NCBI GenBank assembly: GCA_949948985.1
Contig: CATLIG010000003.1
Location: 1 to 64,000, forward strand
DNA from: an uncultured Clostridia bacterium
GTDB lineage: Bacteria > Bacillota > Clostridia > Lachnospirales > CAG-274
Length of the DNA: 64,000 nt
Direction: 5' to 3'
The notes under the pieces were generated by a model that saw only the letters and a program-made list of their open reading frames with translations, made no database searches and had not been told where the DNA came from. This document shows positions 684 through 38,750 of this stretch, piece by piece (the stretch's first letter is position 1; each line of letters begins with the position of its first letter). The translations under genes were made by a program, and so were the position numbers.

Positions 684-1754
684 ATGGACAGGTTATGGGA
701 AAGTTCACCCTTTTCAATGAATAAGCAGGAAAAAAGTGAATTTTATTCTGAAAAACTAGCTGAATTGACCCAAAAACACAGTCAAGGCTGTATTTTATAC
801 AAAAGATTTTTGGAAAATTTAAAATTTTCTTTAAACAAAGTATACGCCCCTGAAGAATATCCTTTTATTCCTGTAAGATTGTTTAAAGATTATGAATTGC
901 TAAGCGTTGACAAAAGTGAAATAATAAAAACAATGACATCATCGGGAACAACAGGTCAGCAGGTTTCTAAAATTTTTCTTGACAGAAAAACTTCCGCTAA
1001 TCAGACAAAAGCTCTTATAAAAATAACTTCTGAGTTTTTAGGAAAATCAAGACTTCCTATGCTTATTATCGACAGTAAAAAAACTGTTTCCGACAGGCGG
1101 CTTTTTTCAGCCAGAGGCGCGGGTATCCTTGGATTTTCAATGCTGGGACACAACTTAACCTATGCCCTTGATGAAAATATGGAACTTAATACTGAAACTG
1201 TAGGAAATTTCCTTGACAAGCATAAAGGTGAAAAAATTTTCTTATTTGGATTCACATATATGATATGGGCTCATTTTTATAAAAAGCTTGCCTGTTTAAA
1301 CGAAAAATTTGACTTGTCAAATGGTATTTTACTTCACGGCGGCGGTTTTAAAAAATTACAGGACGAGGCTGTGGACAATGAAACTTATAAATCAGAGCTT
1401 AAACGTGTATGCGGAATTGAAAAAGTATATAATTATTACGGTATGGTGGAACAAACAGGTTCTATATTTATGGAATGCGAACACGGAAGGCTTCACGCAT
1501 CGAATTTTTCCGATATTTTTATAAGAAACCCTAAAGATTTTTCTATCTGCGAAAAAGGTGAAAAAGGACTTATACAGCTTGTTTCGGTTTTGCCTGAAAG
1601 CTATCCTGGAACAAGCATACTTACCGAGGATATAGGCGAAATAACAGGGTGGGACGACTGCCCCTGCGGAAGATACGGAAAAACGTTTAAAATATACGGC
1701 AGAATAAAAAAAGCGGAGGCAAGGGGGTGCAGCGATACTTATGAGCGTAAATAA
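684..1754 (+). CDS. LuxE-like acyl-protein synthetase
   Basis: A 356-residue protein of the LuxE family (acyl-protein synthetase, ANL superfamily). LuxE activates a fatty acid as acyl-AMP and transfers it to a cysteine before reduction by LuxC. The adenylate loop TSSGTTG is near residues 84-90, and a Cys-rich CPCG lies near the C-terminus. The ATG follows AAGGAG by a normal spacing. It overlaps the luxC-like gene by 14 bases, so the two are translationally coupled, as expected for an acyl-reductase complex. No luciferase genes (luxAB) are present, so light production is not implied. The true substrate is unknown; the downstream acyl carrier protein suggests a carrier-bound acyl group. Confidence 0.85.
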   Translation: MDRLWESSPFSMNKQEKSEFYSEKLAELTQKHSQGCILYKRFLENLKFSLNKVYAPEEYPFIPVRLFKDYELLSVDKSEIIKTMTSSGTTGQQVSKIFLDRKTSANQTKALIKITSEFLGKSRLPMLIIDSKKTVSDRRLFSARGAGILGFSMLGHNLTYALDENMELNTETVGNFLDKHKGEKIFLFGFTYMIWAHFYKKLACLNEKFDLSNGILLHGGGFKKLQDEAVDNETYKSELKRVCGIEKVYNYYGMVEQTGSIFMECEHGRLHASNFSDIFIRNPKDFSICEKGEKGLIQLVSVLPESYPGTSILTEDIGEITGWDDCPCGRYGKTFKIYGRIKKAEARGCSDTYERK

Positions 1755-2928
1755 AGTAGAAATTATACTGGGTTTAGATGAACCAAAAGCTTATATTTCG
1801 GAAGTATACAGCGATGAGGTATGCCGTTTTTCTGACGATTTATCAAAATGGCTGAGAAAAAACAAAGACGCCTGTGCTTTTCCTGACATTATGGCTGTAG
1901 CTTTTTGGCTTAGAAAAGGAAATATTGAAAAAATGAAAAAAGAGTTTTACGACGGTAAAATACATATGGGCAGAGGTCTTATATTTCATATTACTCCGTC
2001 CAATGTTCCTGTAAATTTTATTTTTTCTTATTTTTTCGGTCTTTTGTCGGGTAATTCAAATATTGTACGTATTCCGTCAAAAAAATTTCCTCAGACTGAT
2101 ATTTTATGTAAAGCTGTTAAAGAGGTTTTACAAAATGATGATTATACAAATATAAGAGATAATACGATGTTTATCACCTATGAAAGAGATAAGGAAATAA
2201 ATGATTATTATTCACATATATGCGACGGAAGAATTATATGGGGCGGAGATGGTACAATAAACACAATTCGTAAATCTGAAATAAAGCCGAAAGCCGTAGA
2301 GGTTGTATTCGCTGACAGGTATTCTTTTGGCGTGATACAAAGCGAAAAAATATTATCTATGACAGAAAAAGAAATATTAAATCTTGCCCGTGGATTTTAT
2401 AATGATACTTACATTATGGACCAAAATGCCTGCTCTACGCCTCATTGTATTTTCTGGCTTGGAAACAAGGCAAAAGAAGCGTCTGAAATTTTTTGGAACG
2501 TCGTAAAGAAAGAAGAGGAAAAATATACTTTTGAGGCTATAAAAGCCGTTGATAAATATACGGATTTATGCCATACCGCTATGGAACGGACAGATATAGA
2601 GGAAATAAAAATATATGGAAATTTTCTTTATGTTGTGCGCCTTTTCGGAGTTCCTGACGATATGGAGGCTTTACGGGGAAAATACGGAATGTTTTTTGAG
2701 TGCGGTATAAAATCTTTAAACGATATTTCAAATTCAATTACAGAAAAAAGCCAGACGATGATTTATTATGGAATTGATGAAAATATATTAAGGGATTTTA
2801 TAACAAAAAGTTGTTTAAAGGGTATTGACAGAATTGTGCCTTTCGGAAACGCTTTGGATATTGGTGTGTTATGGGACGGATATGATATTATACGCTCATT
2901 GTCAAGAGTTGTTGACATACGGAAGTAA
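1741..2928 (+). CDS. LuxC-like acyl-CoA/acyl-ACP reductase
   Basis: A 395-residue protein of the LuxC family (aldehyde-dehydrogenase fold). It would use NADPH to reduce an activated acyl group to an aldehyde. The probable catalytic cysteine is C231 in the motif DQNACSTPH, which matches the nucleophile context in LuxC. The ATG at 1741 lies inside the end of the luxE-like gene, with a G-rich ribosome site near 1723-1728. Family LuxC proteins are longer (about 480 residues), so this is a compact version; the N-terminus looks shortened but the catalytic core is intact. A 77-bp palindromic repeat follows it. Confidence 0.85.
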   Translation: MSVNKVEIILGLDEPKAYISEVYSDEVCRFSDDLSKWLRKNKDACAFPDIMAVAFWLRKGNIEKMKKEFYDGKIHMGRGLIFHITPSNVPVNFIFSYFFGLLSGNSNIVRIPSKKFPQTDILCKAVKEVLQNDDYTNIRDNTMFITYERDKEINDYYSHICDGRIIWGGDGTINTIRKSEIKPKAVEVVFADRYSFGVIQSEKILSMTEKEILNLARGFYNDTYIMDQNACSTPHCIFWLGNKAKEASEIFWNVVKKEEEKYTFEAIKAVDKYTDLCHTAMERTDIEEIKIYGNFLYVVRLFGVPDDMEALRGKYGMFFECGIKSLNDISNSITEKSQTMIYYGIDENILRDFITKSCLKGIDRIVPFGNALDIGVLWDGYDIIRSLSRVVDIRK

Positions 2929-2974
2929 TTATTTTATTGTTTCACACTGGAAATTTCGCGAATTTCTGTAGTTT

Positions 2975-3051
2975 TATAGTCAATCAACTTGAAAATGAGC
3001 AAAATAATTTTCCTCCATCAAACTTGTTTATTTTTAAGTTGATTGACTATA
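2975..3051. repeat. Family 1 palindromic repeat, short form
   Basis: A 77-bp element bounded by TATAGTCAATCAACTT and its inverse, lacking the central part of full-length copies. It lies between the luxC-like gene and the acyl ligase gene. Confidence 0.8.
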
Positions 3052-3090
3052 AATGTATCTTTTAATATTTACGCGAGGAGGTTATAAAAG

Positions 3091-4509
3091 ATGAGTTTTT
3101 ACCATGACTTGGACCGATATAAAGATTATACGGCGGTTGTTGATGAAACGGGAATTTCACTTACATACGGGGATATGAAAAAATTCGCTGAAAGTGTAGG
3201 TAAGATTGTACCAAAAAGAAGTCTTGTCTTTCTTTACTGTGAAAACAGAGCGGGAAGCGTACTGAGTTATATTTCCTGTTTGTACAACTCGGTGGTTGTT
3301 CTGCTTTTAAGCGATTCTATAGAGGACGGGTTAAACAAAGAACTTTTAAATATTTATACTCCTTCATATTTATTTGTTCCAAAGGAAAGTAAAATAGAAT
3401 TTGAGGGATATTTAACGATTTATGAGGAATATAGATACTGTCTGATGAAATCGGAAAAAAAATATGACATACCTTTATACAATGACCTTGCCTTGCTTTT
3501 AACAACATCGGGGAGTACGGGAAGTCCAAAGCTTGTAAGACAAAGTTATGAGAATATACAATCAAACGCTTTAGCTATAGCGGAATATTTAGAACTTGAC
3601 AAAACCGAAAGGGCAATTACATCTCTTCCTATGAATTATACTTACGGTCTTTCAATTATAAACAGTCATTTTGAAGCCGGAGCGGCGGTGTATATGACTA
3701 CAAAAGGTATTTTACAGAAAGAGTTCTGGGAATTTTTCAAGGACAATAATATTACTTCTTTCGGAGGAGTGCCTTATACTTATGAGATGCTTAAAAGACT
3801 GAGATTTTTTAATATGGATTTGCCTTCGCTTAAAACAATGACGCAGGCAGGAGGAAAGCTTTCTCCGGAGCTCCACAGACAGTTTGCCGAATATGCTTTG
3901 GAAAAAGGAAAAAGATTTATAGTTATGTATGGTCAGACAGAGGCGACTGCCAGAATGTCATATCTTCCTTATGAAAAATCTCTTGAAAAATACGGAAGTA
4001 TGGGAATTGCTATTCCCGGAGGAAGATTTGAGCTTATTGACGCGGATAACAATGTGATAAATTCTACCGATATAGTCGGGGAGCTTGTTTATTATGGTAA
4101 AAATGTGACCTTGGGATACGCTGAAAACAGAGGGGATTTAATAAAGGGCGATGAACGGTCAGGAAGGCTTGTCACCGGAGATATAGCAAAAATGGATTCA
4201 GACGGATACTATTATATTGTGGGAAGAAAAAAAAGATTTCTTAAAATATTTGGAAACAGGGTTAATTTAGATGAATGTGAAAGACTTATAAAGAAAGAAT
4301 TTACAAATATGGAATGTGCCTGCGGCGGTAAAGACGACAAGCTATATATTTATATAACAGACGATAATGAAAAAGACAGTATAATAAAATTTATTTCAAA
4401 CAAAACAGGTATTCACCCAAGCGCTTTCAGAATTATAAAAATTGACCAAATCTCAAAAAATGATTCAGGTAAAATTTTATATAATGAACTTTCGGGTCAA
4501 GCAACTTGA
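3091..4509 (+). CDS. AMP-forming acyl ligase (ANL superfamily)
   Basis: A 472-residue adenylate-forming enzyme that probably activates a carboxylic acid and loads it on CoA or on the nearby acyl carrier protein. Visible motifs: the phosphate loop TTSGSTGSPK near residues 137-146, YGQTEAT in the middle, TGD plus the GRKKRFLKIFGNRVNLDE hinge, and the late catalytic lysine K461 in NDSGKI. All key residues are present. The start is set by GAGGAGG just upstream. The protein is slightly short compared with acyl-CoA synthetases (about 500-550), nearer to ligases of carrier-protein pathways. The 3' end touches a degenerate family 1 repeat. The substrate cannot be read from the sequence. Confidence 0.85.
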   Translation: MSFYHDLDRYKDYTAVVDETGISLTYGDMKKFAESVGKIVPKRSLVFLYCENRAGSVLSYISCLYNSVVVLLLSDSIEDGLNKELLNIYTPSYLFVPKESKIEFEGYLTIYEEYRYCLMKSEKKYDIPLYNDLALLLTTSGSTGSPKLVRQSYENIQSNALAIAEYLELDKTERAITSLPMNYTYGLSIINSHFEAGAAVYMTTKGILQKEFWEFFKDNNITSFGGVPYTYEMLKRLRFFNMDLPSLKTMTQAGGKLSPELHRQFAEYALEKGKRFIVMYGQTEATARMSYLPYEKSLEKYGSMGIAIPGGRFELIDADNNVINSTDIVGELVYYGKNVTLGYAENRGDLIKGDERSGRLVTGDIAKMDSDGYYYIVGRKKRFLKIFGNRVNLDECERLIKKEFTNMECACGGKDDKLYIYITDDNEKDSIIKFISNKTGIHPSAFRIIKIDQISKNDSGKILYNELSGQAT

Positions 4510-4579
4510 AAATGAGTAAAAGGAGGCATAATAAAATTTATTTCCGCTGAACTTGTTTATTTTTAAATTGTTTGACTAC
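4502..4579. repeat. Family 1 palindromic repeat, degenerate short form
   Basis: The left end CAACTTGAAAATGAG and right end TTTTTAAATTGTTTGACTA are recognisable but diverged. The element starts inside the last codons of the acyl ligase gene and includes its stop, so the insertion may have supplied the gene's 3' end. Confidence 0.6.
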
Positions 4580-4610
4580 AAAGTATTTTTTATGATTAGG
4601 AGGAAAGAAA

Positions 4611-5357
4611 ATGCTTCTTAAAGGCAAAACTGCTATTGTTACAGGCTCTAACAGAGGAATTGGAAAAGCTATACTTATAAAATTCGCTCAAAACGGCGCT
4701 GATATATTTGCTCATGCCAGAAAAAAAACCGATGATTTTGAAAACGAATGCGGAAGTATTTCCGAAAAGTACGGCGTCAAGGTTATACCCTTTTATTTTG
4801 AGGCGTCTGACAGTGAGGAAATAAAAGAAGCCGCTAAAAGTATATCCAAAATAAAAAAAGACATAGATATTCTTGTAAATAATATTGGAACTGTCAATTC
4901 TATAAGATTATTTCAAATGACAAAAATGCAGGAAATAAAAGACGAGTTTGAAATAAATTTTTTCGCTCAGATAGAATTTACTCAATATATTTCCAGATTT
5001 ATGATAAGAAATAAAAAAGGCAGTATCGTAAACATTTCTTCAGTAGCGGGGATTGACGGAAATACGGGAGTACTTCCATATGTATCAAGCAAAGCGGCTA
5101 TGATAGGAGCGACAAAAAGACTTGCTATAGAACTTGGAAGCTCAAATATAAGAGTTAATTCTGTAGCTCCGGGACTTACGGACACGGATATGGGAAATCA
5201 GATGAAAGAAGAACTTGAAAAAGAGGTTTATGACCGCCTTATATTTAAAAGAAAAGCAAGACCTGAGGAAATAGCAGACGCTGTTTTGTTTTTAGCCTCT
5301 GATATGTCAGCTTTTATTACAGGACAGGTATTAAGGGTAGACGGCGGAATGTCATAA
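4611..5357 (+). CDS. SDR-family oxidoreductase (FabG-like)
   Basis: A 248-residue classical short-chain dehydrogenase. It has the cofactor loop TGSNRGIG (residues 11-18), the NNIG motif, a serine in the VNISSVAG strand, and the catalytic Y157 and K161. The C-terminal VLRVDGGMS is typical of 3-oxoacyl-ACP reductase relatives. It most likely reduces a ketone with NAD(P)H. In this cluster the ketone could come from the transketolase-type step or from an acyl-ACP. AGGAGG precedes the ATG. A full-length family 1 repeat separates it from the transketolase gene. Confidence 0.85.
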   Translation: MLLKGKTAIVTGSNRGIGKAILIKFAQNGADIFAHARKKTDDFENECGSISEKYGVKVIPFYFEASDSEEIKEAAKSISKIKKDIDILVNNIGTVNSIRLFQMTKMQEIKDEFEINFFAQIEFTQYISRFMIRNKKGSIVNISSVAGIDGNTGVLPYVSSKAAMIGATKRLAIELGSSNIRVNSVAPGLTDTDMGNQMKEELEKEVYDRLIFKRKARPEEIADAVLFLASDMSAFITGQVLRVDGGMS

Positions 5358-5382
5358 TTAATAGATTTTTCTGCAAACTATG

Positions 5383-5546
5383 TATAGTCAATCAACTTAA
5401 AAATAAGTAAGTTCGGCGACTAAAAATCCTTTTTGCCGTATTGCCGTCGGTCGGCATAGGCAGTCGGCTATGCTCTCCCTCCGACGCCTTGCAAAAATAA
5501 TTTTTAGATAGCCTCCTTTTTCTCATTTTCAAGTTGATTGACTATA
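5383..5546. repeat. Family 1 palindromic repeat, full length
   Basis: A 164-bp element from TATAGTCAATCAACTT to its inverse. The centre holds CGGCATAGGCAGTCGGCTATG, itself an imperfect inverted repeat. It has no coding capacity and looks like a miniature inverted-repeat (MITE-type) element. Confidence 0.85.
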
Positions 5547-5680
5547 ATTACAGCAATTCTATAAAAAGAGTAAAACGTTTTTTCTGCCTTGCCGGAATTG
5601 CTGTAAGGTCTGGAAAGAGGTTTGCTCAACAGTTTTTTTGGATACTTTTTAAAGTTTAAAGAGAGGAGAAAGCGTTTATT

Positions 5681-7651
5681 ATGAAAAAATCAGTCAATGT
5701 ACCTTTTGAACAGCCGGACAAAGGGGCGGGCGGGGACTGTAATATTAATCATATATTACAGTCATGCGGGACTCTTGCCGGCAATATACGTGAGGACGCT
5801 CTTTTAATGGCATTTTGTGCGGGAGCCGGAGCGGCTCACTTAGGAGGAGGTCTGTCGCATATTGACATTCTTTCCGTACTGTACGGCACTGTAATGAAAC
5901 ATAATTCCGATAATCCCGAATGGGATGAAAGAGATCGTTTTATTTTAAGCAAGGGTCATGGTGTATTAGGATATTACGGGGCTCTTTGTGAAACAGGGTA
6001 TATACCACGAGAGGAATTATTTGGGTTTGAGAAAAGCGGAAGCGATTTGCTAGGACACCCTGTTAAAAATTTAAAAAAGGGTATCGAGGCTACAACGGGA
6101 AGTCTTGGACAAGGATTATCTCTTGGTATAGGAATGGCTTTGGGCTTAAAAGAACAGGGAAAAAGCTCAAAGGTATATGTTCTTCTTGGTGACGGAGAGT
6201 GCAATGAGGGTTCTGTATGGGAGGCTTTTATGTCGGCTTCTCAATATAAAATGGACAACATAACAGCGATTATTGACAGAAATCATTTTCAGCTTGGCGG
6301 GGATACGAAAGACGTTATGGACGTAGGCAATATTTCTGATAAAATACGGGCTTTTGGCTGGGAAGTAAGAGAGGTTGACGGACATAATATAAAAGAGGTA
6401 TACGAGGCTTTTAAAAAACCGCGTGAGGAAGATAAACCTTTAGCTATAGTGGCTGATACCGTTAAAGGGTACGGGTTTTCTTTCTGTGAGGGGAACAATG
6501 CTTATCATCATGCTGTTGTTACAAAAGATTTGTATGAAACAGGTATGAGAGAGCTTGGAAAAGAATGTGACCCTGACTCTATAAGAAAAAAGGCTGAGGA
6601 ATGGAAAGAAAATCATTCCGCATATTTAAAAAAATACAAGTCCCATATTAAAAAAAGCCAAATCGAAAACAAAATAACTGTTACAAAACAGCTTGCGAGA
6701 AGATGGTCAATGGTTGGGCAAAGGGCGGCTTTCGGGCTTGCAGTTATGGAGATTGCGCCCGATAATCCAAAGCTTAAAGTTCTTACGGCTGATGTGTCAA
6801 GCTCAGCGGGACTTGAAAGATTAAAAAAAACATATCCTGACAAATTTCTTGACGCAGGTATAGCGGAGCAAAATATGATGGGAATAGCGTCGGGATACAG
6901 TCAGACGGGATATGATGTTATTACGGCGACTTTCGCCCCTTTTCAGAGTATGAGATGTCTTGAGCAGATTCGTGTAAATATGGGGTATATGGGCAGTAAA
7001 GTTATTATGGTGGGGCTTGCGGGAGGTCTTGTACTTGGAACACTTGGAAATACTCACTGCTGTTTTGAGGATATAGGTGTTTTAAGGTCAATCCCTAATA
7101 TCGCTGTAATTTCCCCCGCTGACTCCTGTGAGGTCGGAAAAGCTTTAGAGGCGGCTCTTAAAACAGATATGTCCGTATATATCAGGCTTTTGGGAGGCAG
7201 TGGCTGTCCTGTTATTTATACAGAGGATTACAATTTTGAAATCGGAAAAGCTGTGATTATAAAAGGCGATTTAGAAAAAGAAAATAACGATGTTGTTTTA
7301 ATAGCGTCGGGGACAATGGTAAACGAGTCTGTCAAAGCTTTTGAACTTCTGGCGGAGAAAGGCATTTCATCGGTAGTTGTGAATATGCACACCATTAAAC
7401 CTATAGACAAAGATACTATACTTAAAGCTGTCGGCAATTCCAAGGTTATTGTTACTGTTGAGGAGCATAATAAATATGGTGGATTGTCAACAGCGGTTTC
7501 AGAGGTACTTGTTGAAAACGGTGGTTTTTCAAAATTTATTTCTATAGGACTGCCTGATGAATACGGCTGCGGCGGAGATTATAAAGATTTGCTTGAATTA
7601 TATGGATTGACAGGCGGCAGTATAGCTGATAAGGTAATTGAAAATTTATAA
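5681..7651 (+). CDS. Transketolase-family enzyme (N and C halves fused)
   Basis: A 656-residue thiamin diphosphate enzyme with both transketolase halves in one chain. The N-terminal half has the diphosphate-binding GDGECNEGSVWEA near residue 170 and a GHG motif near 93. The C-terminal pyrimidine and transketolase-C parts run from about residue 340 and include AGIAEQNMMGIASG, where the conserved glutamate sits. Transketolases move a two-carbon ketol unit to an aldehyde. Its place between an SDR gene and an acyl carrier protein gene, 18 bases from the latter, suggests a pathway role with the LuxC-derived aldehyde rather than the pentose phosphate cycle; that is inference. AGGAGA precedes the start. 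Confidence 0.85.
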   Translation: MKKSVNVPFEQPDKGAGGDCNINHILQSCGTLAGNIREDALLMAFCAGAGAAHLGGGLSHIDILSVLYGTVMKHNSDNPEWDERDRFILSKGHGVLGYYGALCETGYIPREELFGFEKSGSDLLGHPVKNLKKGIEATTGSLGQGLSLGIGMALGLKEQGKSSKVYVLLGDGECNEGSVWEAFMSASQYKMDNITAIIDRNHFQLGGDTKDVMDVGNISDKIRAFGWEVREVDGHNIKEVYEAFKKPREEDKPLAIVADTVKGYGFSFCEGNNAYHHAVVTKDLYETGMRELGKECDPDSIRKKAEEWKENHSAYLKKYKSHIKKSQIENKITVTKQLARRWSMVGQRAAFGLAVMEIAPDNPKLKVLTADVSSSAGLERLKKTYPDKFLDAGIAEQNMMGIASGYSQTGYDVITATFAPFQSMRCLEQIRVNMGYMGSKVIMVGLAGGLVLGTLGNTHCCFEDIGVLRSIPNIAVISPADSCEVGKALEAALKTDMSVYIRLLGGSGCPVIYTEDYNFEIGKAVIIKGDLEKENNDVVLIASGTMVNESVKAFELLAEKGISSVVVNMHTIKPIDKDTILKAVGNSKVIVTVEEHNKYGGLSTAVSEVLVENGGFSKFISIGLPDEYGCGGDYKDLLELYGLTGGSIADKVIENL

Positions 7652-7668
7652 TTTGGAGGTTTTATTTT

Positions 7669-7908
7669 ATGACAAATTTGGATAAATATAAACAGGCTTT
7701 TATAAACGGTCTTGAAATATCAGAAAGTGAGGTAAACTCACAATTAGAGTATCAAGGAGTTAAAAATTGGGACTCTGTGGGACATATGACTCTTATCGCT
7801 GAATTGGAGGACGCTTTTGATATTATATTTGAGGCGGATGATATTATAAATTTTAGTTCTTATGATAAGGGTATTGAAATTTTAAAGAAATATAATATTG
7901 AGTTCTGA
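7669..7908 (+). CDS. Acyl carrier protein
   Basis: A 79-residue phosphopantetheine-binding protein. S36 in WDSVGHM is the expected attachment serine. The helix after it (LIAELEDAFDI) is the usual partner-recognition helix. It follows the transketolase gene by 17 bases with a good GGAGG site, so it is in the same transcript. It probably carries the acyl substrate of the LuxE/LuxC/ligase set. It differs from fatty-acid AcpP, which has DSLD(S/T)VE, and so looks like a dedicated carrier. Confidence 0.9.
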   Translation: MTNLDKYKQAFINGLEISESEVNSQLEYQGVKNWDSVGHMTLIAELEDAFDIIFEADDIINFSSYDKGIEILKKYNIEF

Positions 7909-9644: not shown

Positions 9645-9808
9645 TATAGTCAATCAACTTAAAAATAAGTAAGTTAGGCGGCTAAAAATCCTTTTTCCAG
9701 TGTTGCCGTCGGTCGGCATAGGCAGTCGGCTATGCTCTCCCTCCGCCGCCTTGCAAAAATAATTTTTAACTCGCCTCCTTTTTCTCATTTTCAAGTTGAT
9801 TGACTATA
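9645..9808. repeat. Family 1 palindromic repeat, full length
   Basis: A 164-bp copy with intact ends, nearly identical to the copy at 5383 across the centre. It lies between the divergent PL9 and CE12 genes, just outside both promoters. Confidence 0.85.
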
Positions 9809-16534: not shown

Positions 16535-16573
16535 AAAACTATAATAATTTACAAGAAGGAAGTGCGGTTGTTT

Positions 16574-18502
16574 ATGAAAGAAATACAAAAGGCAATTTTA
16601 TCTGAAAATCTCGGACGTATAGAAGAAATTCTGAAAGAAGAACCAAAAATTATTAATGAAACTGACGAAAATGGTATTCTTATGGCATTTTTGGCTGCAA
16701 AAACGGGTAATCTGGAAATTGTGAAGTACATAGCGGAATACTCAATGGCGAGTATGAATATTGTTGATAAGGACAATAAAAATATACTTCATTACGGCGC
16801 TATGTCAAAAAGCACAGATGTATGCAGATATTTAGTGGAAAAAATCGGTATGTCTCCTACGGCAGGGGATAATAATCTACTTACACCTTATGAGATGGCT
16901 GTTAATGATAATAATACAGAACTTGTGGAGTATTTTAAAAGCGTTGTTGGCTGTGATATTGAAAATATGTATCATAATCCTATACGTACCGGTTTTTATC
17001 CGGACCCGTCTATTGTCAGAGTCGGAACGGATTATTATATGGTAAATTCATCATTTATATATTTTCCGTGTATTCCTATTTCTCATTCTACAGACCTTGT
17101 AAACTGGCATATTATAGGATATGCCATAACAAATCCCGAATGGGCGAATATAGATAAACTTGAGGGGGGAAGAGGATACTGGGCGCCTGATATTTCTTAT
17201 TATGAGGGAAAATTCTACATTACCGCCACTTACAGAATGAATGACGATGGGACAGTCTACAGAAAACAAATTGTTGTAAGCTCTGAAAAACCTGAGGGAC
17301 CTTACAGCAAACCGGCGATTATTGACGAGGATGGTATCGACCCGTCTATTTTTACAGATGACGACGGAAGAAGATATATGCTTTTAAACAGAGGAGCGAG
17401 AATTTTTGAATTGGATAAAAATGCCGAAAAACAGATTTCAGAGGCTCAGATGATTTATTACGGCGATAATAAAAGAGCTCCGGAAGGCCCTCATATACTG
17501 AAAAAAGACGGTTATTATTATTTATTTCAGGCAGAGGGAGGAACAGGAATAGGTCATAGAATATCTGTAGCAAGAAGCAAAGAGCTTAAAGGAAATTATG
17601 AGCCTTGCCCTTATAACCCTATAATGCGGCAGATGGATGAAAATTCCATAATTCAGAGGTGTGGTCATGGAAAGCCTGTTATGACACAAAACGGACAGTG
17701 GTATATGGTTTATTTATGCGGAAGAAAGATTACAGGCAAAAACGGAGAGCCATGCAGCATACTTGGAAGAGAAACCGCTCTTGACCCTATTACATGGACG
17801 GCGGACGGCTGGCCTATAGTAAATAATTTAAAAGGACCATCATATCTTCAGAAAAAACCCGATTTGCCTGAAACCATATGGGAAGAAAATAACAGAACGG
17901 ATTTCTCCGCAAAGGATTTATTCAGTATATGGACATTTTCAAGAACTCCGGAGAACGACGGATATAAAATTAAAGACGGCAGGCTGTTGCTAAAGGGTTC
18001 TGTGAATGATATGGATTCAATGCTTTCTAAAAATATTCTGTTAAGACGTCAGACAGCGTTCTGCTTTATTGCGGAGTGTGAGATGAAAGTTCCGAAACTT
18101 GATAAAGGTCAGGATGTAGGAATTACCTGTTATTATGATGAAAATACATATTTGAAATTCGCTGTATTTTGTGAGGAGAGCGGAAGTCTTATTATTCGTG
18201 TTCTTGAAAAAATAGGCGATAATGTAATAAAGCACAGTTCAGTTCCTGTAAAAGAAAAAGACAGTGTTTATTTTAAGGTTGTTACAAGAGGCATAAAAAG
18301 AACATTTTATGCAAGTTTTGACGGAAAAAATTATGACGAGATTTTACAGCTTGACAATGTATATTATTTATGTGACGAGGGGCTTAAAAAGGGTAAAAGG
18401 TTTACCGGAGCTATGGTAGGAATGTACGCTTATTCAGGTGAAAAAGGCAATAGTGAGCCTTTGTTTGCTGAATTTGTGTCTTTTAAATATATTAATGATT
18501 AA
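16574..18502 (+). CDS. Ankyrin-repeat / GH43 glycosidase fusion (intracellular)
   Basis: A protein of about 642 residues with two unlike parts. Residues 1-130 are ankyrin repeats (GNLEIVKYIAEYS, NILHYGAMSKSTDVCRYLVEK, TPYEMAVNDNNTELVEYFK). From about 140 a GH43 five-blade propeller follows: YPDPSIV (catalytic base aspartate), IDPSIFTDDDG (second aspartate) and EGPHILKKDGYYY (acid glutamate). From about 440 a beta-sandwich like the xylosidase C-terminal domain completes it. GH43 enzymes of this layout release xylose or arabinose from oligosaccharides. No signal peptide is present, so it acts in the cytoplasm. AAGGAAG at 16556-16562 serves ATG 16574; a TTG at 16568 is an alternative. The ankyrin fusion is unusual. 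Confidence 0.85.
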   Translation: MKEIQKAILSENLGRIEEILKEEPKIINETDENGILMAFLAAKTGNLEIVKYIAEYSMASMNIVDKDNKNILHYGAMSKSTDVCRYLVEKIGMSPTAGDNNLLTPYEMAVNDNNTELVEYFKSVVGCDIENMYHNPIRTGFYPDPSIVRVGTDYYMVNSSFIYFPCIPISHSTDLVNWHIIGYAITNPEWANIDKLEGGRGYWAPDISYYEGKFYITATYRMNDDGTVYRKQIVVSSEKPEGPYSKPAIIDEDGIDPSIFTDDDGRRYMLLNRGARIFELDKNAEKQISEAQMIYYGDNKRAPEGPHILKKDGYYYLFQAEGGTGIGHRISVARSKELKGNYEPCPYNPIMRQMDENSIIQRCGHGKPVMTQNGQWYMVYLCGRKITGKNGEPCSILGRETALDPITWTADGWPIVNNLKGPSYLQKKPDLPETIWEENNRTDFSAKDLFSIWTFSRTPENDGYKIKDGRLLLKGSVNDMDSMLSKNILLRRQTAFCFIAECEMKVPKLDKGQDVGITCYYDENTYLKFAVFCEESGSLIIRVLEKIGDNVIKHSSVPVKEKDSVYFKVVTRGIKRTFYASFDGKNYDEILQLDNVYYLCDEGLKKGKRFTGAMVGMYAYSGEKGNSEPLFAEFVSFKYIND

Positions 18503-23225: not shown

Positions 23226-25106
23226 TTAGTTAATTGTTAAACCTGCGCTTGCATATCCGGCAACTGTATTGATTAAAGTTAATCCGCTTGCTGTAGCAGA
23301 AAATACAAGCATAAGTCTTGTTTGAGCTGTAACAGGAATATTAAGTCCTGAAAGTGAGCCGTTCAGTAATGTTCCTATAGCCACTACTCCTGAAAGTGAT
23401 GGTGTCAGATTAATCAGAGTTCCGGCAATAGGAGAAAATACATTATTCGGTGTTGTAGATTGATATATTTGTGCGTTTATTGTTGCAGTAGAGCCAATTA
23501 ATGATAATGCTACCGTAGTGCTGAAAAATGCACTGAATGAGGTAATAACACCATTTCTTGGCAACTGAAATGCAAAGTTTGTAAGAGTTCCGCTTGCATT
23601 AGTAATATTTATTGTTGTGCCAAGTACAGTAAGTCCTTGTGCGCTGCTTCCGAATCCTACAAATGCAGGAAGACCGGCAAGACCGCCTGCAATAGTAGTC
23701 AGTGCAACTGGCAGACCTGAAGCAAATGGAATAATAGAGCCTGTACCAGCTATACCAGTAGGTCCGGTAGGTCCAGTAGGTCCAGTAGGTCCGGTAGCAC
23801 CAGTAGGTCCAGTAGGTCCGGTAGCACCAGTAGGTCCGGTAGGTCCGGTAGCACCGGTAGCACCAGTAGCGCCGTCAGCACCAGTAGCACCGGTAGCGCC
23901 GTCAGCACCGGTAGGTCCAGTAGGTCCGGTAGCACCGGTAGCACCAGTAGCACCGTCAGCACCAGTAGCACCAGTAGCGCCGTCAGCACCAGTAGGTCCG
24001 GTAGCGCCGTCAGCACCAGTAGCACCGTCAGCGCCAGTGGGTCCGGTAGCGCCGTCAGCACCAGTAGCACCAGTAGCACCGGTAGCGCCGTCAGCACCAG
24101 TAGCACCGGTAGCGCCGTCAGCACCAGTAGGTCCGGTAGCGCCGTCAGCACCAGTAGCACCAGTAGGTCCAGTAGGTCCGGTAGCGCCGTCAGTGCCAGT
24201 AGGTCCGGTAGCACCGTCAGCACCAGTAGCACCGGTAGCACCAGTAGCACCAGTAGCGCCGTCAGCACCAGTAGCACCAGTAGCGCCGTCAGCACCAGTA
24301 GCACCAGTAGCGCCGTCAGCACCAGTAGCACCAGTAGCACCGGTAGGTCCAGTAGGTCCGGTAGCGCCGTCAGCACCAGTAGCACCGATAGTGCCGTCAG
24401 CACCAATAGGTCCAGTAGCGCCAGTAGGTCCAGTAGCGCCAGTAGGTCCAGTAGCGCCAGTAGGTCCAGTGGCGCCGTCAGAGCCAGTAGGTCCAGTAGG
24501 TCCAGTATCTCCTTGACATCCTTTAGGTCCTTGGATTCCGATAGGACCTGTAACACCTTGAATTCCTTGAGGACCGGTTACTCCTTGAGGACCCATAGGA
24601 CCAGCACTTCCAGTAGGCCCAGGTATGCCCTGAATACCTCTGGGACCTATAGGACCAATGTCACCTTGAGGTCCGGTAGGACCTACAGGACCAGGAATAC
24701 CCTGAGGACCCATAGGTCCGGGAACGCCTTGTGGTCCTTCACAGCCAGGATCGCCTTTTGGGCCGATGTCTCCGCGAATGCCCTGAATACCTGGTATACC
24801 TTGAGGTCCGGCATATCCTCTGGGACCTTCCAATCCTCTAGGGCCTGTATTTCCGGTAGGACCTACAGGACCGGTATTACCTCTAGGACCTCTTGCGCCC
24901 GGTTCACCAGGAATTCCACGTGGTCCCTGGGGGCCTTGAGGACCTCGGTCACCTTTAGGACCAGGACAACCAGTATCACCTTTTATACCTTGAGGTCCCG
25001 GAGGTCCCTGTTCACATTTAGGACTTTCCGGACATGGTTCACAGCAAGAATTAATACATTTATCACAATGATTTCTTGTATAATTATATGCATTATATTG
25101 ATTCAT
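23226..25106 (-). CDS. Collagen-like exosporium protein with BclB-type C-terminal domain
   Basis: A protein of about 626 residues. A Cys-rich N-terminus (residues 1-35, [12 protein letters not shown]) precedes about 420 residues of Gly-X-Y repeats: first varied GPQG/GPRG units, then monotonous [13 protein letters not shown]. The C-terminal 175 residues begin [18 protein letters not shown] and match the BclB C-terminal domain of exosporium glycoproteins, which drives trimer formation. The threonines in the repeats are typical O-glycan sites, and a glycosyltransferase gene lies upstream. The protein would form hair-like filaments on the spore surface, made in the mother cell. A sequence CATATAATA at 25180-25188 resembles a sigma-E/K -10 box. 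The ATG at 25106 follows AAAGGT by 10 bases. Confidence 0.9.
23748..24500. repeat. 9-bp-period collagen repeat tract
   Basis: A dense array of 9- and 18-bp near-repeats coding for GPT/GAT/GAD triplets. Such tracts expand and contract by slippage. The opposite strand is also open in long frames, which is a by-product of the repeat. Confidence 0.85.
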
Positions 25107-25556
25107 AAATAACACAACCTTTGTTTTAATTTATAGAAGATGTCCTGCTGAATTATCATCAAAATATCTTCTATAATGTTATTATATGAATATTTTATAT
25201 ATTTGCTACATATAATAATATTTTATCTATAGTGAAACAATAAAAGAATGAACAGGTAAATTTCAATAAACCCAATGTATAAAGGAATTTCTTTAGTTCT
25301 CCTAGGAAACCAGCAAATTGACAGATAAGTGCAGATTTTGCTGGTAGGCGAAATTAAATTTTTGTCGTAATACCCACGATGGTATTTCAAGAAAATTTAA
25401 TAAAGCATATCGGAAAAAGATGTGCTTAGTTGGCATTTTCTATGTTTCAGAGGAGGTCTTTTGCTGGTTTGCTAAAGGTTTTGCGAATTGCTGTAAAAAT
25501 GATTTTTTAAGATTATTACTATTATTATAACAATTCTGTAATTGCTATAAATACAG
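25107..25556. other. Gap between the BclB-like gene and the glycosyltransferase gene
   Basis: No gene seen. It holds the leader of the BclB-like gene with a hairpin (ATAGAAGAT near 25165 pairing with ATCTTCTAT near 25135), the -10-like CATATAATA (minus strand, 25180-25188), an inverted repeat CCAGCAAA/TTTGCTGG at 25310-25344 and an AT-rich hairpin around 25353-25402. The last two look like degenerate miniature elements. Confidence 0.45.
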
Positions 25557-26624
25557 TTATAGATGTTCAAAGTAATGCTTATTATAAAGGTATGCTTTGG
25601 AATATGGTTTACAAATTCCTGCTTTTTCATTATATTCTTCTGCTTTTTTGTGGTTGCCCATTCTATCATAACATACACATAGCTGCATAAATGGTATATA
25701 ATCATAGCAATCAGGAAGAATAAATCCTTGGGACATTGGATTCCTGTGACTTTTTAATGCGGTTTCATACCAATAAACTGCGTTTTTATAATCTTTTCGT
25801 TCCAAAAAATGTTTTCCAATATCGCAGCATAATTCCGCTCTTGGAATATCAAAGCTTAAGCTTCGCAGTAAAGTTAAAAGGGCTGAATTTTCATTACCTA
25901 ACTGATAATAGCAGTTTGCGCAAATAGAACATGCTTCTATTTTATTTTCAAGCCAGCCGTCAGGAGATTCTAAAAATTTTTCAAATACAGAAACAGCGTC
26001 TTTATATAAATGATGATAGTACAGTTCACGTCCATAATAATATTGTTGTCGCGGTTCTAAAATTTTTCCTTTGGAAATTAGTTTTTTATAGATATTTAAA
26101 TTTCTATCAGAATTGCCAATTCCTTCTTTTCTGTGACATATTGCAATATCGGAATGAACTATTTTTCCGTAAGGAGGTATTACTTCATGAACCTCTCCTA
26201 TCCAACGGTATTTGGGAATATTTTTAATCCATCGTTCTCTAAAATATGAAAAGGAAGGATTTCCTGCTTCATCAAATGCTGTATTGTATTTCATCATTAC
26301 AATATCTGTATCAAGCGTTAAAGATTGTTTTAAATTTATAAATTTATTTTTTTCTGATGCCTCAAGTACATCATCAGCGTCTAACCACATACAGTAATCT
26401 TTGGTTGCTTTAGAAAATGAATAATTTCTGGCAGCAGAAAAGTCATCTGTCCATATATAGGAATAAATATTTGAAGTATATTCTGCTGCTATTTCTTTAG
26501 TATGATCGGTTGAACCTGTATCTACAATAATGATTTCATCTACGAGAGATGTTATACTATTAAGGCATCTTGAGATAACTTTTTCTTCATTTTTAAGAAT
26601 CATACATAAACTAATTGTTACCAT
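25557..26624 (-). CDS. GT2 family glycosyltransferase with C-terminal TPR-like helices
   Basis: A 355-residue cytosolic enzyme. The GT-A fold starts at once: ISLCMILKNEEKVISRCL, then IIIVDTGSTDHT, then the metal-binding WLDADD motif near residue 80. From about 210 to the end are TPR-like helices (NKIEACSICANCYYQLGN, CYDRMGNHKKAEEYNEKAG), as in SunS-type protein glycosyltransferases. It would transfer a sugar to protein, and the threonine-rich collagen protein encoded next door is the obvious substrate; this pairing is known for spore-surface glycoproteins of clostridia but is inferred here. AAAGGAGA precedes the ATG. It is probably transcribed with the second collagen gene by readthrough. Confidence 0.85.
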   Translation of the reverse strand: MVTISLCMILKNEEKVISRCLNSITSLVDEIIIVDTGSTDHTKEIAAEYTSNIYSYIWTDDFSAARNYSFSKATKDYCMWLDADDVLEASEKNKFINLKQSLTLDTDIVMMKYNTAFDEAGNPSFSYFRERWIKNIPKYRWIGEVHEVIPPYGKIVHSDIAICHRKEGIGNSDRNLNIYKKLISKGKILEPRQQYYYGRELYYHHLYKDAVSVFEKFLESPDGWLENKIEACSICANCYYQLGNENSALLTLLRSLSFDIPRAELCCDIGKHFLERKDYKNAVYWYETALKSHRNPMSQGFILPDCYDYIPFMQLCVCYDRMGNHKKAEEYNEKAGICKPYSKAYLYNKHYFEHL

Positions 26625-26763: not shown

Positions 26764-27456
26764 TTATCTGCATAATTTCAGAATGTTTATATTTACGGTA
26801 ATATGAGAGGCAGATTCTGAACAATTCCACTTAAATAATATAGGAGCGGAATCTGATATATCAATAATAAAATTTCTTGAAATGTTGAGATAATCATTTC
26901 GTTTTTTTGATACGGCATATCCAGCATAGCATGACTGTTCACAGCCATTGAAAACAGGTGTGAGTTTGACAAATCCGGGATTTTTTATTTTCGCTGAAAT
27001 AAAAAAATAGATTGAATAATATCCTTGCTGTAAAGTAAGAGAGTGATTATTATATGGATAAATATTTCCTGTTATATCGGGAACTGTCGTTTTAAGAGGC
27101 AGGCTGGCATTTTCAGGCAGAGAAAGTTCTTGTTCGGCAAATGCTGAAAAAATACTGTCTTGTGAGTATCCCGGTTCTCCCTTAGGACCGCGTAATCCTT
27201 GTTCACCTCTTGGTCCCTGAGGACCGGTTACGCCTTGAGGTCCCTGAGGACCAGTTACACCCTGAGGCCCTTGTTCACCGCGTTCTCCGGGATAACCCTG
27301 AGGCCCTTGCTTGCCTCTTGGTCCCATTATTCCCGGTTCATAGGATATGTCTTCAATTTTTATAGTTTCCGAATTATTGTATATTTTTGGTGTAGTATTT
27401 GAGTAGTTTAACTTATTTTTGGGATGTAAGATTCCGTGTGTTGAACAATAATTCAA
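26764..27456 (-). CDS. Short collagen-like protein with globular C-terminal domain
   Basis: A 230-residue protein. It has about 40 residues of unknown N-terminus, then roughly 18 Gly-X-Y triplets (residues 44-97, such as [13 protein letters not shown]), then a 130-residue beta-rich globular region ([23 protein letters not shown]). This is the layout of BclA-type spore filament proteins, whose TNF/C1q-like tips trimerise. The tip here is not clearly one of the known families. The start is a TTG at 27456 with GAGGTG seven bases before it. A close match to a sigma-K/E promoter lies at 27513-27540, which fits mother-cell expression. Confidence 0.8.
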
Positions 27457-34914: not shown

Positions 34915-35904
34915 TTATTGTATTATACATTTTTTAATAATTATCTGTGCGATAAGGCTGACTCCGTTTTTGTTTACTATTTGTTTTTCGGTTTCGGAAA
35001 TTTGTTTTCTTTTTTCGAAATCGGCCATTAATGAATTGAAAAGGAATAAAAAATCTTGAGGGATTATATCCTCTTCTTTTCCGGCATAAATAAATAAACC
35101 GTTATTCTCGCCGAATTTCATCGGAGCGTTTTGATTTTCGGCTATGGACAGAGATATTTGCGGAACTCCTAAAGAAGCGATTTCATGGGTAGTTCCTCCG
35201 TTTGCCGTTACCGCTAAATCGCATTTTGAAATCAGCTCAGCCATTTTCGGATTCATATGAAGAATTATATTTTTATTGGAAACGGTAAGATTTTTAAGAT
35301 TAGATTTACCTGTTTCTGAAAAGCTGTTTCCAACAGCGACATTAAATGTATAAGGGCAATCCTTTAAAATATTAAGTATTTTTACAGAAGTGTTTTTTGG
35401 ATCCGTGCCGCCCATTGTAATTAAAACATTTTCGGCTTTTTCTTTTACAGCCGTAGGAGATGCGTTTTGAAACTCACTGCGGAGAAGAGCGTATTTCGTT
35501 CCTAAAAGAATTTCACATTCTTTAGGGGTATTGTAAATTAAGTTTTCCGCCATAAAGCATTTATTTATTATTATATCGCAGTCATAATAGCTAAGGCAGT
35601 GCAAATCATCAATATATATGAGCCTGCCGTATTTTTTTCTTAATTCCGAAAGCCTGATTTCGGTCATATCATAGCTGTCAGCAAGCAAAATATCCGCGTC
35701 TATGCCATCCTCCTCATAATATACGTCATATCCTCTTTTTTTTAGTTCATTTACACCTGCCGCATACTCTTTTGAGCTTTTGCTTATGTATACGATGTTA
35801 AATAGATTTTTAACTGCCTCGGCGATTACAAGTGTTCTCATTATATGACCCATACCAAGTAAAAATGAACCAGAACACATTATAGCCATTGTTTTTTTAC
35901 TCAT
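34915..35904 (-). CDS. pseG: PseG-like UDP-sugar hydrolase (pseudaminic acid pathway)
   Basis: A 329-residue protein of the GT-B-like PseG/MurG fold. PseG removes UDP from a diacetamido-trideoxy-altrose to free the sugar used by PseI. GMGHIMR near residues 17-23 is the signature containing the catalytic histidine. VLITMGGTDP and ANGGTTHEIASLGVP form the nucleotide-binding C-terminal half. The start overlaps the stop of the cytidylyltransferase gene (TAATG). It is the last gene of the operon. The assignment to the pseudaminic rather than the legionaminic route rests mainly on the neighbour PseI-like gene. Confidence 0.85.
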   Translation of the reverse strand: MSKKTMAIMCSGSFLLGMGHIMRTLVIAEAVKNLFNIVYISKSSKEYAAGVNELKKRGYDVYYEEDGIDADILLADSYDMTEIRLSELRKKYGRLIYIDDLHCLSYYDCDIIINKCFMAENLIYNTPKECEILLGTKYALLRSEFQNASPTAVKEKAENVLITMGGTDPKNTSVKILNILKDCPYTFNVAVGNSFSETGKSNLKNLTVSNKNIILHMNPKMAELISKCDLAVTANGGTTHEIASLGVPQISLSIAENQNAPMKFGENNGLFIYAGKEEDIIPQDFLFLFNSLMADFEKRKQISETEKQIVNKNGVSLIAQIIIKKCIIQ

Positions 35905-36611
35905 TAAACCAATCCCTTTTCTTTAAGGAGATTATATTTTATTTCAGCCGTTTCCCAATCATCGGCGGTATCTATATCCTGCACTTCCAAATCAGAAAGA
36001 ATTATAGGAACAACTTTTTCTAGGTCAACTCCTTTTTTTTCAATAAATTCTTTTATATTGTAAAAATAAAACTGTCCGGCATCATGGTAGAGTGGTTCTA
36101 AATCCTGAGACCTTTTTGAATAGTTTTCGGGCCACTTATATGTTATTGTGTTATCCTCGCCGATTATAAAACCTCTTTGAGGAGGATAAGAAAATTTTAC
36201 AACAGGAACAACAGAAGAGGCCTTGTTGTTGATTAAAGTATCAAGCCCGAGTTTTAACTTTTTCGTTGTGATAAACGGAGCCGTAGGATATAAGCAACAG
36301 GCATAGTCAAATGTTTTTCCCGTTTTCTCATAGCAGCCGAATACCTCTAATAATACATCGGCGGTTGTGGCAAAGTCGCCGGAGGTTTTTTCACTTCGCA
36401 TAAAGGGAACGTTTGCTCCGGCTTTTTTAGCTGTATAGGCAATCTCTTCGCTGTCTGTAGATACCATAACCTCGTCAAAAATACCGCTGTTTAAAGCTGC
36501 TTTTACAGAATAATTTATTATAGGCTCACCGCAGAAGTTTTTTATGTTTTTATTGGGTATTCTCTTACTTCCGCCGCGGGCAGTTATTATAGCTATTGTT
36601 TTACCGTTCAT
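35904..36611 (-). CDS. pseF: CMP-pseudaminic/N-acylneuraminate cytidylyltransferase
   Basis: A 235-residue enzyme that activates a nonulosonic acid with CTP. The N-terminal ITARGGSKRIPNKNIK holds the CTP loop; DEVMVSTDSEEIA and CCLYPTAPFIT are NeuA/PseF signatures. AGGAGG precedes the ATG. It overlaps the PseG gene by one base and follows the synthase gene by 74 bases. The product would be CMP-pseudaminic acid for transfer to a surface protein or glycan. Confidence 0.88.
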   Translation of the reverse strand: MNGKTIAIITARGGSKRIPNKNIKNFCGEPIINYSVKAALNSGIFDEVMVSTDSEEIAYTAKKAGANVPFMRSEKTSGDFATTADVLLEVFGCYEKTGKTFDYACCLYPTAPFITTKKLKLGLDTLINNKASSVVPVVKFSYPPQRGFIIGEDNTITYKWPENYSKRSQDLEPLYHDAGQFYFYNIKEFIEKKGVDLEKVVPIILSDLEVQDIDTADDWETAEIKYNLLKEKGLV

Positions 36612-36685
36612 TTTTTACCTCCTTATTAATTACCTTTTCGATAACACTTGCAATACCGTCTGACAGGTGTTTTCACGATATGATT

Positions 36686-37738
36686 TTATCGAACCATATT
36701 CCAGCTTAAAGGCGTTCCTTTTTCGTAATTGGACGCGGCTGTTTTTCCTAGGATTTCCTCATAATACATTGTATGAAGTCCTCCGCCGGGTCTTATTGAG
36801 CGGACGTTTTCCTCTGTATAAATGTCTCCTTTTTTTACATCGTGTACAATATATAATGAACGTGAACTGCCTCTTGCTGCCTCCTGTTTTTCAGTTAATG
36901 TATAAGTCGCTTTTCCAAGAGCTTTTTCAAGATTCCTTATTTGAAAAACCATTTGTTTAAATTCTTCCGCCTCCATTGAAAAAGCGGAGTCCACACCGCC
37001 GTCAGAGCGTTTAAGAGTAAAGTGTTTTTCTATTATTTTAGCTCCGAGAGCAACCGCACCCAAGGCTACCTCTGAACCGGGGGAATGGTCTGAAAGACCT
37101 GTTATACATTCAAAGGTTTCTTTCATATTAGGTATTAATCTAAGGTTCATATCCTCGTAAGGAGAGGGATAGGCAGAGGTACATTTTAATAAAGCGACAT
37201 TCTCATTGTTTTCTTCTTTGCAGGTTTTAAGAGCCCGTTCTATATCCTCCAGATGAGCCATACCTGTTGAGATTATTATAGGTTTTTTAGTTTTAGCGGC
37301 TTTCCTTATAAGAGGAATATCGTTAATTTCATAGGACGCTATTTTTATAGCCGGCATATTGATTTTTTCCATAAAATCCACCGCTGTTTTATCAAATGGT
37401 GATGAAAAGCAATCAAGACCTATTTTTTCGGCGTGTTCTTTTAAATCTTTTTGCCATTCCCACGGAGTATACGCTTTCTTATAAAGAGAATACAGGTTTT
37501 TTTCATTTTCCCATAAACCTTTTCCAAGAGAAAAGGCTGGTTTGTTACAGTCTATTGTGATTGTATCGGCAGTATATGTCTGTAATTTTACCGCGTCGGC
37601 GCCGGATTCTTTAACGGCGTCTATTATTTTTAAAGCCCTGTTAAAATCCCCGTTATGATTTCCTGACATTTCAGCGATTATATATACAGAGGAATTCTCT
37701 GAAATCATTTTATTTCCTATGTTAAAAGATTTATTCAT
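36686..37738 (-). CDS. pseI: Pseudaminic acid synthase (NeuB family)
   Basis: A 350-residue synthase that condenses the free sugar with phosphoenolpyruvate. The TIM barrel starts VYIIAEMSGNHNG. GKGLWENEKNLYSLYKKAYTPWEW is the PseI-type substrate segment, and ISTGMAH, ITGLSDHSPG and EKHFTLKRSDGGVDSAFS are family motifs. A C-terminal SAF domain (about 290-350) closes the site. The start at 37738 follows AAGGAGG; 37 upstream codons in frame have no site. The window lacks PseB, PseC and PseH, so those steps must be encoded elsewhere. Confidence 0.9.
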   Translation of the reverse strand: MNKSFNIGNKMISENSSVYIIAEMSGNHNGDFNRALKIIDAVKESGADAVKLQTYTADTITIDCNKPAFSLGKGLWENEKNLYSLYKKAYTPWEWQKDLKEHAEKIGLDCFSSPFDKTAVDFMEKINMPAIKIASYEINDIPLIRKAAKTKKPIIISTGMAHLEDIERALKTCKEENNENVALLKCTSAYPSPYEDMNLRLIPNMKETFECITGLSDHSPGSEVALGAVALGAKIIEKHFTLKRSDGGVDSAFSMEAEEFKQMVFQIRNLEKALGKATYTLTEKQEAARGSSRSLYIVHDVKKGDIYTEENVRSIRPGGGLHTMYYEEILGKTAASNYEKGTPLSWNMVR

Positions 37739-37817
37739 TTTTACCTCCTTGTAATTAAACAATAAAATTGTGGAACATTGTCCCATACTCTGCAAGAACG
37801 TGAAACATAGTTTAATT

Positions 37818-38750
37818 CTATTGTATTTTATTTTCAATAATACTGTCAAGAAAACTACTGATGTTTATATTTAATTTATTAAGAGTTCTTATGACGATAC
37901 TCTGAGGGGTAAAACCCGGTATAGTGTTTACTTCTATAAAATAGACCTGTTCATCTTTTACTATAAAATCAACACAGCAAAAACCATCGCATTCAAATAT
38001 TTTAAAAACTTTTTCGGCTATGTCTTTAATCATTTTCCTTATGAATTCAGGTAATGTTGAAAATTCCAGTTTTGCTGATGTATCAATATATTTAGCGTTA
38101 TAGTCGTAGAATTTCCTGTCTGTCGATATATCAATAACAGGAAGAACATCGAGAGCATTTTTTTTCTGAACAATTACGCAGGTTACTTCTCTGCCTGATA
38201 TAAATTTTTCTATTATAACATCATCGCTGTAGTTTTTAATTATATCTTTTACAGCATTTTTTACTTCTTCTATATCTTCAGCAAGAAAAACACCGATACT
38301 TCCGCCTCCGTTGTTTGGTTTTACAATAACGGGAAAACCAAGCTCTTTTATTTTTTCTTCATAATCTATTATGTTATGTTCTTTTTTTATAAAAACATCA
38401 TCACATACAGGTACTCCGTTATTTTTAAGGACTGTTTTGCACATATTCTTATTCATACAAACAGAGCCGGAAAGAACTTTATTTCCAACAGAGGGAATGT
38501 CAAGACAATTAATAAGTCCCGCAACGGAGCCGTCTTCGCCGTATCCTCCGTGAAGAAGATTGAAAATAAGGTCGGGGGAGAATTCTAAAATATCTTTTAC
38601 CCATTGTATATCTTTTTTTTCAGGTATGGTTATTGATTTTACATTATATTTTTGTGTGTCTATGTGTTTTAAAACTTCTTTGGCGGATTGAAGTGATATT
38701 TCACGCTCGGAAGAGCTTCCGCCTGATAAAACCACAATTCTTGGTTTCAT
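37818..38750 (-). CDS. ddl: D-alanine--D-alanine ligase
   Basis: A 310-residue ATP-grasp ligase that makes the D-Ala-D-Ala end of peptidoglycan precursors. SGGSSSEREISL is the N-terminal signature, HGGYGEDG follows, VIVKPNNGGGSIGV is the ATP-binding loop, and EVNTIPGFTPQS is the C-terminal metal and substrate site. AAGGTGG precedes the ATG. It sits in the minus-strand operon before the pseudaminic genes, an uncommon partner; whether it is the only Ddl of the organism cannot be told. Confidence 0.9.
   Translation of the reverse strand: MKPRIVVLSGGSSSEREISLQSAKEVLKHIDTQKYNVKSITIPEKKDIQWVKDILEFSPDLIFNLLHGGYGEDGSVAGLINCLDIPSVGNKVLSGSVCMNKNMCKTVLKNNGVPVCDDVFIKKEHNIIDYEEKIKELGFPVIVKPNNGGGSIGVFLAEDIEEVKNAVKDIIKNYSDDVIIEKFISGREVTCVIVQKKNALDVLPVIDISTDRKFYDYNAKYIDTSAKLEFSTLPEFIRKMIKDIAEKVFKIFECDGFCCVDFIVKDEQVYFIEVNTIPGFTPQSIVIRTLNKLNINISSFLDSIIENKIQ

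Follow-up and report, generated by a model that had tools for sequence, protein, structure and literature searches.

Genes for LuxE and LuxC have been described in two groups of glycosylation islands. The Group II flagellin islands of mesophilic Aeromonas carry genes for an acyl carrier protein (ACP), a 3-oxoacyl-ACP reductase, an AMP-dependent synthetase, LuxE and LuxC between pse genes, with LuxE/LuxC-bearing islands found in ~97 Aeromonas strains (PMC7874193), and the flagellin-glycosylation islands of about 70–80 Enterobacteriaceae strains encode an ACP, LuxE, LuxC, CaiC-type ligases and FabG (PMC4875605). Both studies suggested a 'liposugar'; neither reports what the Lux genes do.

The locus that we analysed, located in a 64-kb window (the whole stretch of DNA under study, corresponding to the first 64 kb of its contig), is a transketolase (TK)-bearing variant of the LuxE/LuxC/ACP cassette of flagellin and surface-glycan clusters. 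As in the Aeromonas and Enterobacteriaceae islands (PMC7874193, PMC4875605), genes for an ACP, a FabG-like SDR, an AMP-ligase, LuxE and LuxC are clustered. Unlike those islands, for which no TK has been reported, the set includes a TK of a dedicated clade, and while pse or other sugar genes are adjacent in the islands, the pse genes of the window lie ~27 kb from the cassette and no glycosyltransferase adjoins it on the side covered by the contig. We found nothing relevant in the open-access literature on LuxE/LuxC or acyl-protein synthetases linked to transketolase, and a 2026 paper on Clostridium pseudaminic acid makes no mention of Lux genes or transketolase. The original prediction that the set belongs to no described pathway is thus correct in part: the five-gene core is already known from the islands (PMC4875605, PMC7874193), while the branch with the altered TK appears to be undescribed.

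Gene content of the locus

All six ORFs are confirmed and lie on the + strand, and their profile matches agree with the gene families originally named for this co-oriented set; the upstream side of the cassette (before position 684) is cut by the contig end. The first gene (684–1754) encodes a 356-aa LuxE-like acyl-protein synthetase (PF04443, E=3e-49) with the acyl-acceptor cysteine, C349, in an RGCSDT motif near the C-terminus, and is followed by the gene for a 395-aa LuxC-like acyl reductase (1741–2928; PF05893, E=4e-26) with Cys231 in a QNACS motif; both cysteines are invariant across 20 relatives. The AMP-forming acyl ligase (3091–4509, 472 aa; AMP-binding PF00501, E=2e-42) keeps the C-terminal lysine motif SKNDSGKI and is probably the enzyme that charges the ACP with an acid. 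Downstream are a 248-aa FabG-like SDR (4611–5357; PF13561, E=1e-55), a 656-aa fused TK with transketolase N, Pyr and C domains (5681–7651; 492.7 bits against NCBIfam NF004559, cut-off 488) and a 79-aa ACP with the phosphopantetheine motif WDSVGHM (7669–7908). The ACP is divergent, matching one NCBIfam ACP model weakly and below the cut-off (E=3e-5); the DS motif is present in 76/76 cassette ACPs checked.

The LuxE and LuxC ORFs overlap by 14 bases, the TK and ACP genes are 17 bases apart and the remaining intergenic gaps are 101–323 bases, so that, judging by the gene layout, it is plausible that the cassette is read as a single transcript. The two largest gaps (162 and 323 bases) contain copies of a genome-wide inverted-repeat element that lies outside the pathway, at 2975–3051 (luxC–ligase gap) and 5383–5546 (SDR–TK gap). 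These MITE-like elements (~77 and ~164 bp, arms TATAGTCAATCAACTT) are sited between genes; further copies in the window are found at 9645–9808, 56190–56266, 60241–60404 and 61796–61959. The window has 19 arms where none would be expected and the whole genome has 273, and one of the elements has a strong predicted fold (z −7.7).

Homologues of LuxE and LuxC in the LuxCDE fatty acid reductase complex of luminous bacteria (7xc6), including the acyl-relay cysteines, are recognisable in the window (LuxE profile versus chain E, E=2e-30; LuxC profile versus chain A, E=1e-13). Compared with the luminescence LuxC (477 aa), the window LuxC lacks ~60 N-terminal residues, and both window proteins score far under the NCBIfam cut-offs for the luminescence equivalogs. 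A genome-wide search for the bacterial luciferase family PF00296 gave no match, while 10/14 control genomes do match, in line with the earlier statement that the locus does not serve bioluminescence; LuxD (PF02273) has no match in the genome, and the control genomes are likewise without any match.

Recurrence of the cassette across bacteria

Searching 295 genomes of the same order for LuxC yielded strong matches in 16. In nearly all of these LuxE adjoins LuxC, the ligase and ACP are usually near, and many also have the SDR and a split TK (TKN/TKC). Among plasmids, the set was found with TK in Rhizobium and lacking it in Ponticoccus. Scanning GTDB genomes for LuxE returned at least 583 confirmed relatives, the best 80 of which belong to Bacillota, Bacteroidota, Spirochaetota, Synergistota, Planctomycetota, Pseudomonadota, Melainabacteria and further groups. 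The original prediction had proposed a search for the same genes in other genomes as a check; this recurrence of the set across many phyla shows that the cassette is not a chance arrangement.

We then counted genes at 96 loci picked by LuxE similarity, and the counts therefore describe close relatives of the window LuxE, not all LuxE proteins. Within 8.5 kb of LuxE, the ligase is present at 88/96 loci, a separate LuxC at 84/96, ACP at 68/96 and SDR at 63/96. TK is found within this distance at 40/96 loci (~1.6 expected by chance, by a rough estimate) and at 43 once hidden or farther ORFs are included. LuxC, be it separate or as a LuxE-LuxC fusion, is nearly always present. Fusion ORFs of 755–859 aa are found in ten loci from several phyla (L053, L056, L060, L068, L086, L087, L088, L097, L103 and L128), which fits an acyl relay between the two proteins. 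The commonest gene order is SDR-TKN-TKC-ACP-ligase-LuxE-LuxC, with the SDR directly preceding TKN in 35/47 cases, and the window SDR groups among the TK-adjacent SDRs of other cassettes.

In the closest congener, G270 (LuxE 86% identical), the order is LuxE-LuxC-ligase-GNAT with no adjoining TK, SDR or ACP, on a contig that begins just upstream and in a genome that is 78% complete. Contig 14 of G270 carries a second LuxE/LuxC/TK cassette (L036) beside a gene for a hybrid sensor kinase/response regulator; this contig reads as an inverted duplicate, which is probably an assembly artefact.

TK, IlvB-like enzymes and DmpG-type aldolases are each able to join a carbon unit to an aldehyde, and all three are found in the cassettes. 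An IlvB-like ThDP enzyme is present at 12/96 LuxE loci, often with NeuB, KAS III, FabZ and a metallo-hydrolase, and only one of these 12 also has a TK (Fisher p=0.013, not corrected for shared ancestry); this sole exception, L042, is a locus at which LuxE/LuxC occur twice, with a partial ORF at the edge. At the TK position, locus L085 has an acetaldehyde dehydrogenase and a DmpG-type pyruvate aldolase (DmpF/DmpG; L085:4652–6576), and it is at this locus that the window SDR has its closest relative (71%). The presence of alternative aldehyde-using carboligases fits LuxC as the supplier of an aldehyde. The combination of NeuB, an IlvB-like ThDP enzyme and an SDR seen in IlvB-type LuxE cassettes is also that of the Shewanella oneidensis sfm operon, although this five-gene operon, as described, has neither LuxE/LuxC nor TK (PMC3765264).

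The cassette transketolase and its acceptor pocket

In a maximum-likelihood tree, 44/45 cassette TKs from several phyla fall into one clade (100/100), apart from 16 housekeeping TKs (100/100) and from most other split TKs; the window TK is a fused member of this clade, with split enzymes as its nearest relatives. The genome encodes a separate TK (C2:66649–68343) that groups with the housekeeping TKs, and the window TK is thus neither the sole TK of the genome nor its housekeeping enzyme. Taken together, the clade, the residues described below and the second TK led us to reject the idea that a housekeeping TK lies at this position by chance. With this second TK and the widely conserved linkage, the conditions under which the original prediction would have failed do not apply.

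The closest solved sequence to each half of the window TK is the split-chain TK of Carboxydothermus hydrogenoformans (6yaj/6yak). While the latter keeps THAG...GEDG, the window TK has LAGG...GTLG, in a single fused chain. The acceptor loop of the window TK (LAGGLVLGTLGNTH) aligns gap-free with those of the solved Carboxydothermus (THAGLTVGEDGASH) and human (SHCGVSIGEDGPSQ) enzymes. The ThDP-binding and catalytic residues E411, H26, H66, H261, H473 and N185 (E. coli numbering throughout) are all present in the window TK; all 45 cassette TKs likewise retain E411, H26, H66, H261 and R520, and all but one retain H473.

In TKs, H461 binds the substrate phosphate and D469 the C2-hydroxyl of the acceptor. 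Both residues are kept in 16/16 housekeeping TKs and in 0/45 cassette TKs, the window TK having Ala at the H461 position and Leu at the D469 position. Of the 45 cassette TKs, 23 have Leu, Phe or Tyr in place of S385; the window TK retains both S385 and R358. In a second sample, drawn from the same order, the double loss of H461 and D469 was found in 11/11 TKs from LuxC-bearing genomes and in 0/18 TKs from genomes without LuxC. There are exceptions to this association: at least two genomes have double-loss TKs outside LuxE loci (L204, L206).

E. coli TK was evolved via D469T, R520Q and S385Y from phosphorylated to aliphatic and then aromatic aldehydes (PMC5073344). Like the evolved S385Y/D469T/R520Q enzyme, the cassette TKs replace D469, and several have an aromatic residue at S385; nature has changed the TK pocket at positions that enzyme engineers altered. 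Unlike the evolved enzyme, the cassette TKs are natural, have also lost H461 (45/45) and keep R520. As judged by these residues, the acceptor specificity of the cassette TKs may have shifted from sugar phosphates to non-sugar aldehydes, although the window TK may still use sugar phosphates, given that R358 and S385 are retained and that R520 is kept throughout the 45. The cassette-specific clade and the remodelled pocket lend support to the chemistry originally predicted for the locus, that is, acid activation, formation of an aldehyde and ketol transfer. If this is true, the cassettes are a natural source of TKs for aliphatic or aromatic aldehydes.

We also considered whether the cassette TK simply belongs with other specialised split TKs, and rejected this, as those sampled in LuxC-free genomes keep H461 or D469. 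In some of them only D469 is replaced (ATHAG..GQAG/GHAG) or only H461 (GAYAG..YDG) (loci L185, L186, L188, L190, L192, L194, L200; L189, L191), and these possibly constitute further specificity classes.

Glycan context, proposed route and alternatives

The window encodes PseG, PseF and PseI, proteins of CMP-pseudaminic acid synthesis that provide context and are not part of the cassette (34915–37849, − strand; each above its curated cut-off). Another contig of the same genome groups PseB, a PseC-like aminotransferase and a Maf-like transferase, and a second Maf-like gene and four flagellin genes are found elsewhere. This combination of pse, Maf-like and flagellin genes makes it probable that the source organism glycosylates its flagellin with a pseudaminic-acid derivative. 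In the relative G185, the cassette directly adjoins PseB-like, cytidylyltransferase and Maf-like genes. Recurrent neighbours of TK-bearing cassettes encode DegT aminotransferases, GT2 glycosyltransferases, thioesterases, hexapeptide and GNAT acetyltransferases, methyltransferases and KAS III.

With a rough probability of 55%, we propose that the cassette makes a glycan decoration by the following route. LuxE would activate a carboxylic acid and hand the acyl group to LuxC, which would reduce it to a non-sugar aldehyde, likely of short or medium chain length or aromatic. The cassette TK would then transfer a two-carbon ketol unit to this aldehyde, with a sugar as donor, yielding a 1,3-dihydroxy-2-ketone, and the SDR would reduce the ketone newly formed by TK. 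The ligase and ACP would supply an activated acyl group that either enters the route at its beginning or is passed to an amino sugar, their role relative to LuxE being ambiguous since both activate acids. Decoration of a flagellar or surface glycan of the source organism would be the most likely fate of the product. Counting against this proposal are the ~27 kb between the cassette and the pse genes, the double-loss TKs outside LuxE loci, and the congener G270, whose LuxE-LuxC-ligase set has no TK, SDR or ACP beside it. The identity of the aldehyde, the order of the steps, the donor, the product and its attachment to a glycan are all what we infer: the LuxE/LuxC, SDR and ligase/ACP steps would follow from knowledge of the families and from context, and it is only the change in the TK pocket, as read from the alignment, that would bear directly on specificity.

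Such a route would explain the role of the Lux genes in glycan islands, for which the TK-bearing version offers concrete chemistry, with an acid-derived aldehyde as the TK acceptor, and would suggest that gut and environmental bacteria have surface-glycan groups not recognised so far. A broader generalisation falls, in our estimate, just short of an even bet: that the cassette TKs are a natural cross-phylum subfamily re-tuned to add ketol units onto non-sugar aldehydes made by LuxE/LuxC, within a modular lengthening route for glycan decorations, the C–C bond-forming slot of which can be filled by TK, by an IlvB-like enzyme with NeuB or by a pyruvate aldolase.

It is also conceivable, if on balance unlikely, that two functions are combined at the locus, with the five-gene core making a glycan acyl group and the TK separately making an unusual sugar or sugar phosphate. 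The absence of TK from about half of the LuxE cassettes implies that the core can work alone, as the G270 set without an adjoining TK also illustrates, and the retention of R520, and often of R358, in cassette TKs as well as the double-loss TKs found outside LuxE loci are in keeping with a separate activity. What speaks against such a division is the position of the TK inside the cassette, adjoining the SDR, ACP, ligase or LuxE, together with the tracking of the double loss with LuxC presence within the order (11/11 versus 0/18) and the occurrence of other aldehyde carboligases where TK is absent.

The original prediction favoured a long-chain dihydroxyketone, triol or lipid-like headgroup made from fatty acids, which we consider doubtful, more so than a division into two functions. 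The acids that LuxE and LuxC handle in luminescence are indeed long-chain (C14), alkyl chains would be accommodated by hydrophobic residues at positions D469 and S385, and the 'liposugar' of the island studies is of the same kind (PMC7874193, PMC4875605). However, the window LuxC lacks ~60 residues at its N-terminus relative to the luminescence enzyme, and most genes that neighbour the cassette in relatives concern amino sugars and glycans, among them glycosyltransferase and acetyltransferase genes; a long-chain lipid product has no specific support. Furthermore, among LuxE loci with KAS III, only two, both from Planctomycetota, also have a KAS I/II-like gene; that KAS III mostly occurs without KAS I/II may indicate short acyl chains in some of the cassettes, though not directly in that of the window, and suggests at most one elongation cycle in the KAS III-bearing ones. 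Least probable of all, and by our estimate a long shot, is the release of a small molecule, such as an alpha-hydroxyketone signal, in place of a glycan group: TK acting on a simple aldehyde would yield an alpha-hydroxyketone, and a G270 cassette adjoins the hybrid sensor kinase/response regulator gene, but this link was seen once only, on the contig with the apparent inverted duplication, and no sensor or exporter recurs among the common neighbour families.

The flagellin of A. piscicola AH-3 is reported to carry a linking sugar of 376.14 Da and a 102 Da moiety. By arithmetic these masses would fit a C4 dihydroxyacyl group; we set this speculative assignment aside, with no TK reported in the AH-3 island. 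A search of the open-access literature for dihydroxybutanoyl substituents returned nothing relevant.

Several other genes of the window deserve mention. The pse genes are part of a segment on the − strand (34915–38750) in which PseG, PseF and PseI are followed by a D-Ala-D-Ala-ligase-like ATP-grasp gene that overlaps pseI; this ligase may act on the sugar and not in cell-wall synthesis. A GT2 glycosyltransferase with TPR repeats (25557–26624) is encoded between two genes for collagen-repeat proteins (23226–25115 and 26764–27456, both − strand), and a single ORF at 16562–18502 (+) combines N-terminal ankyrin repeats with a GH43 glycosidase.
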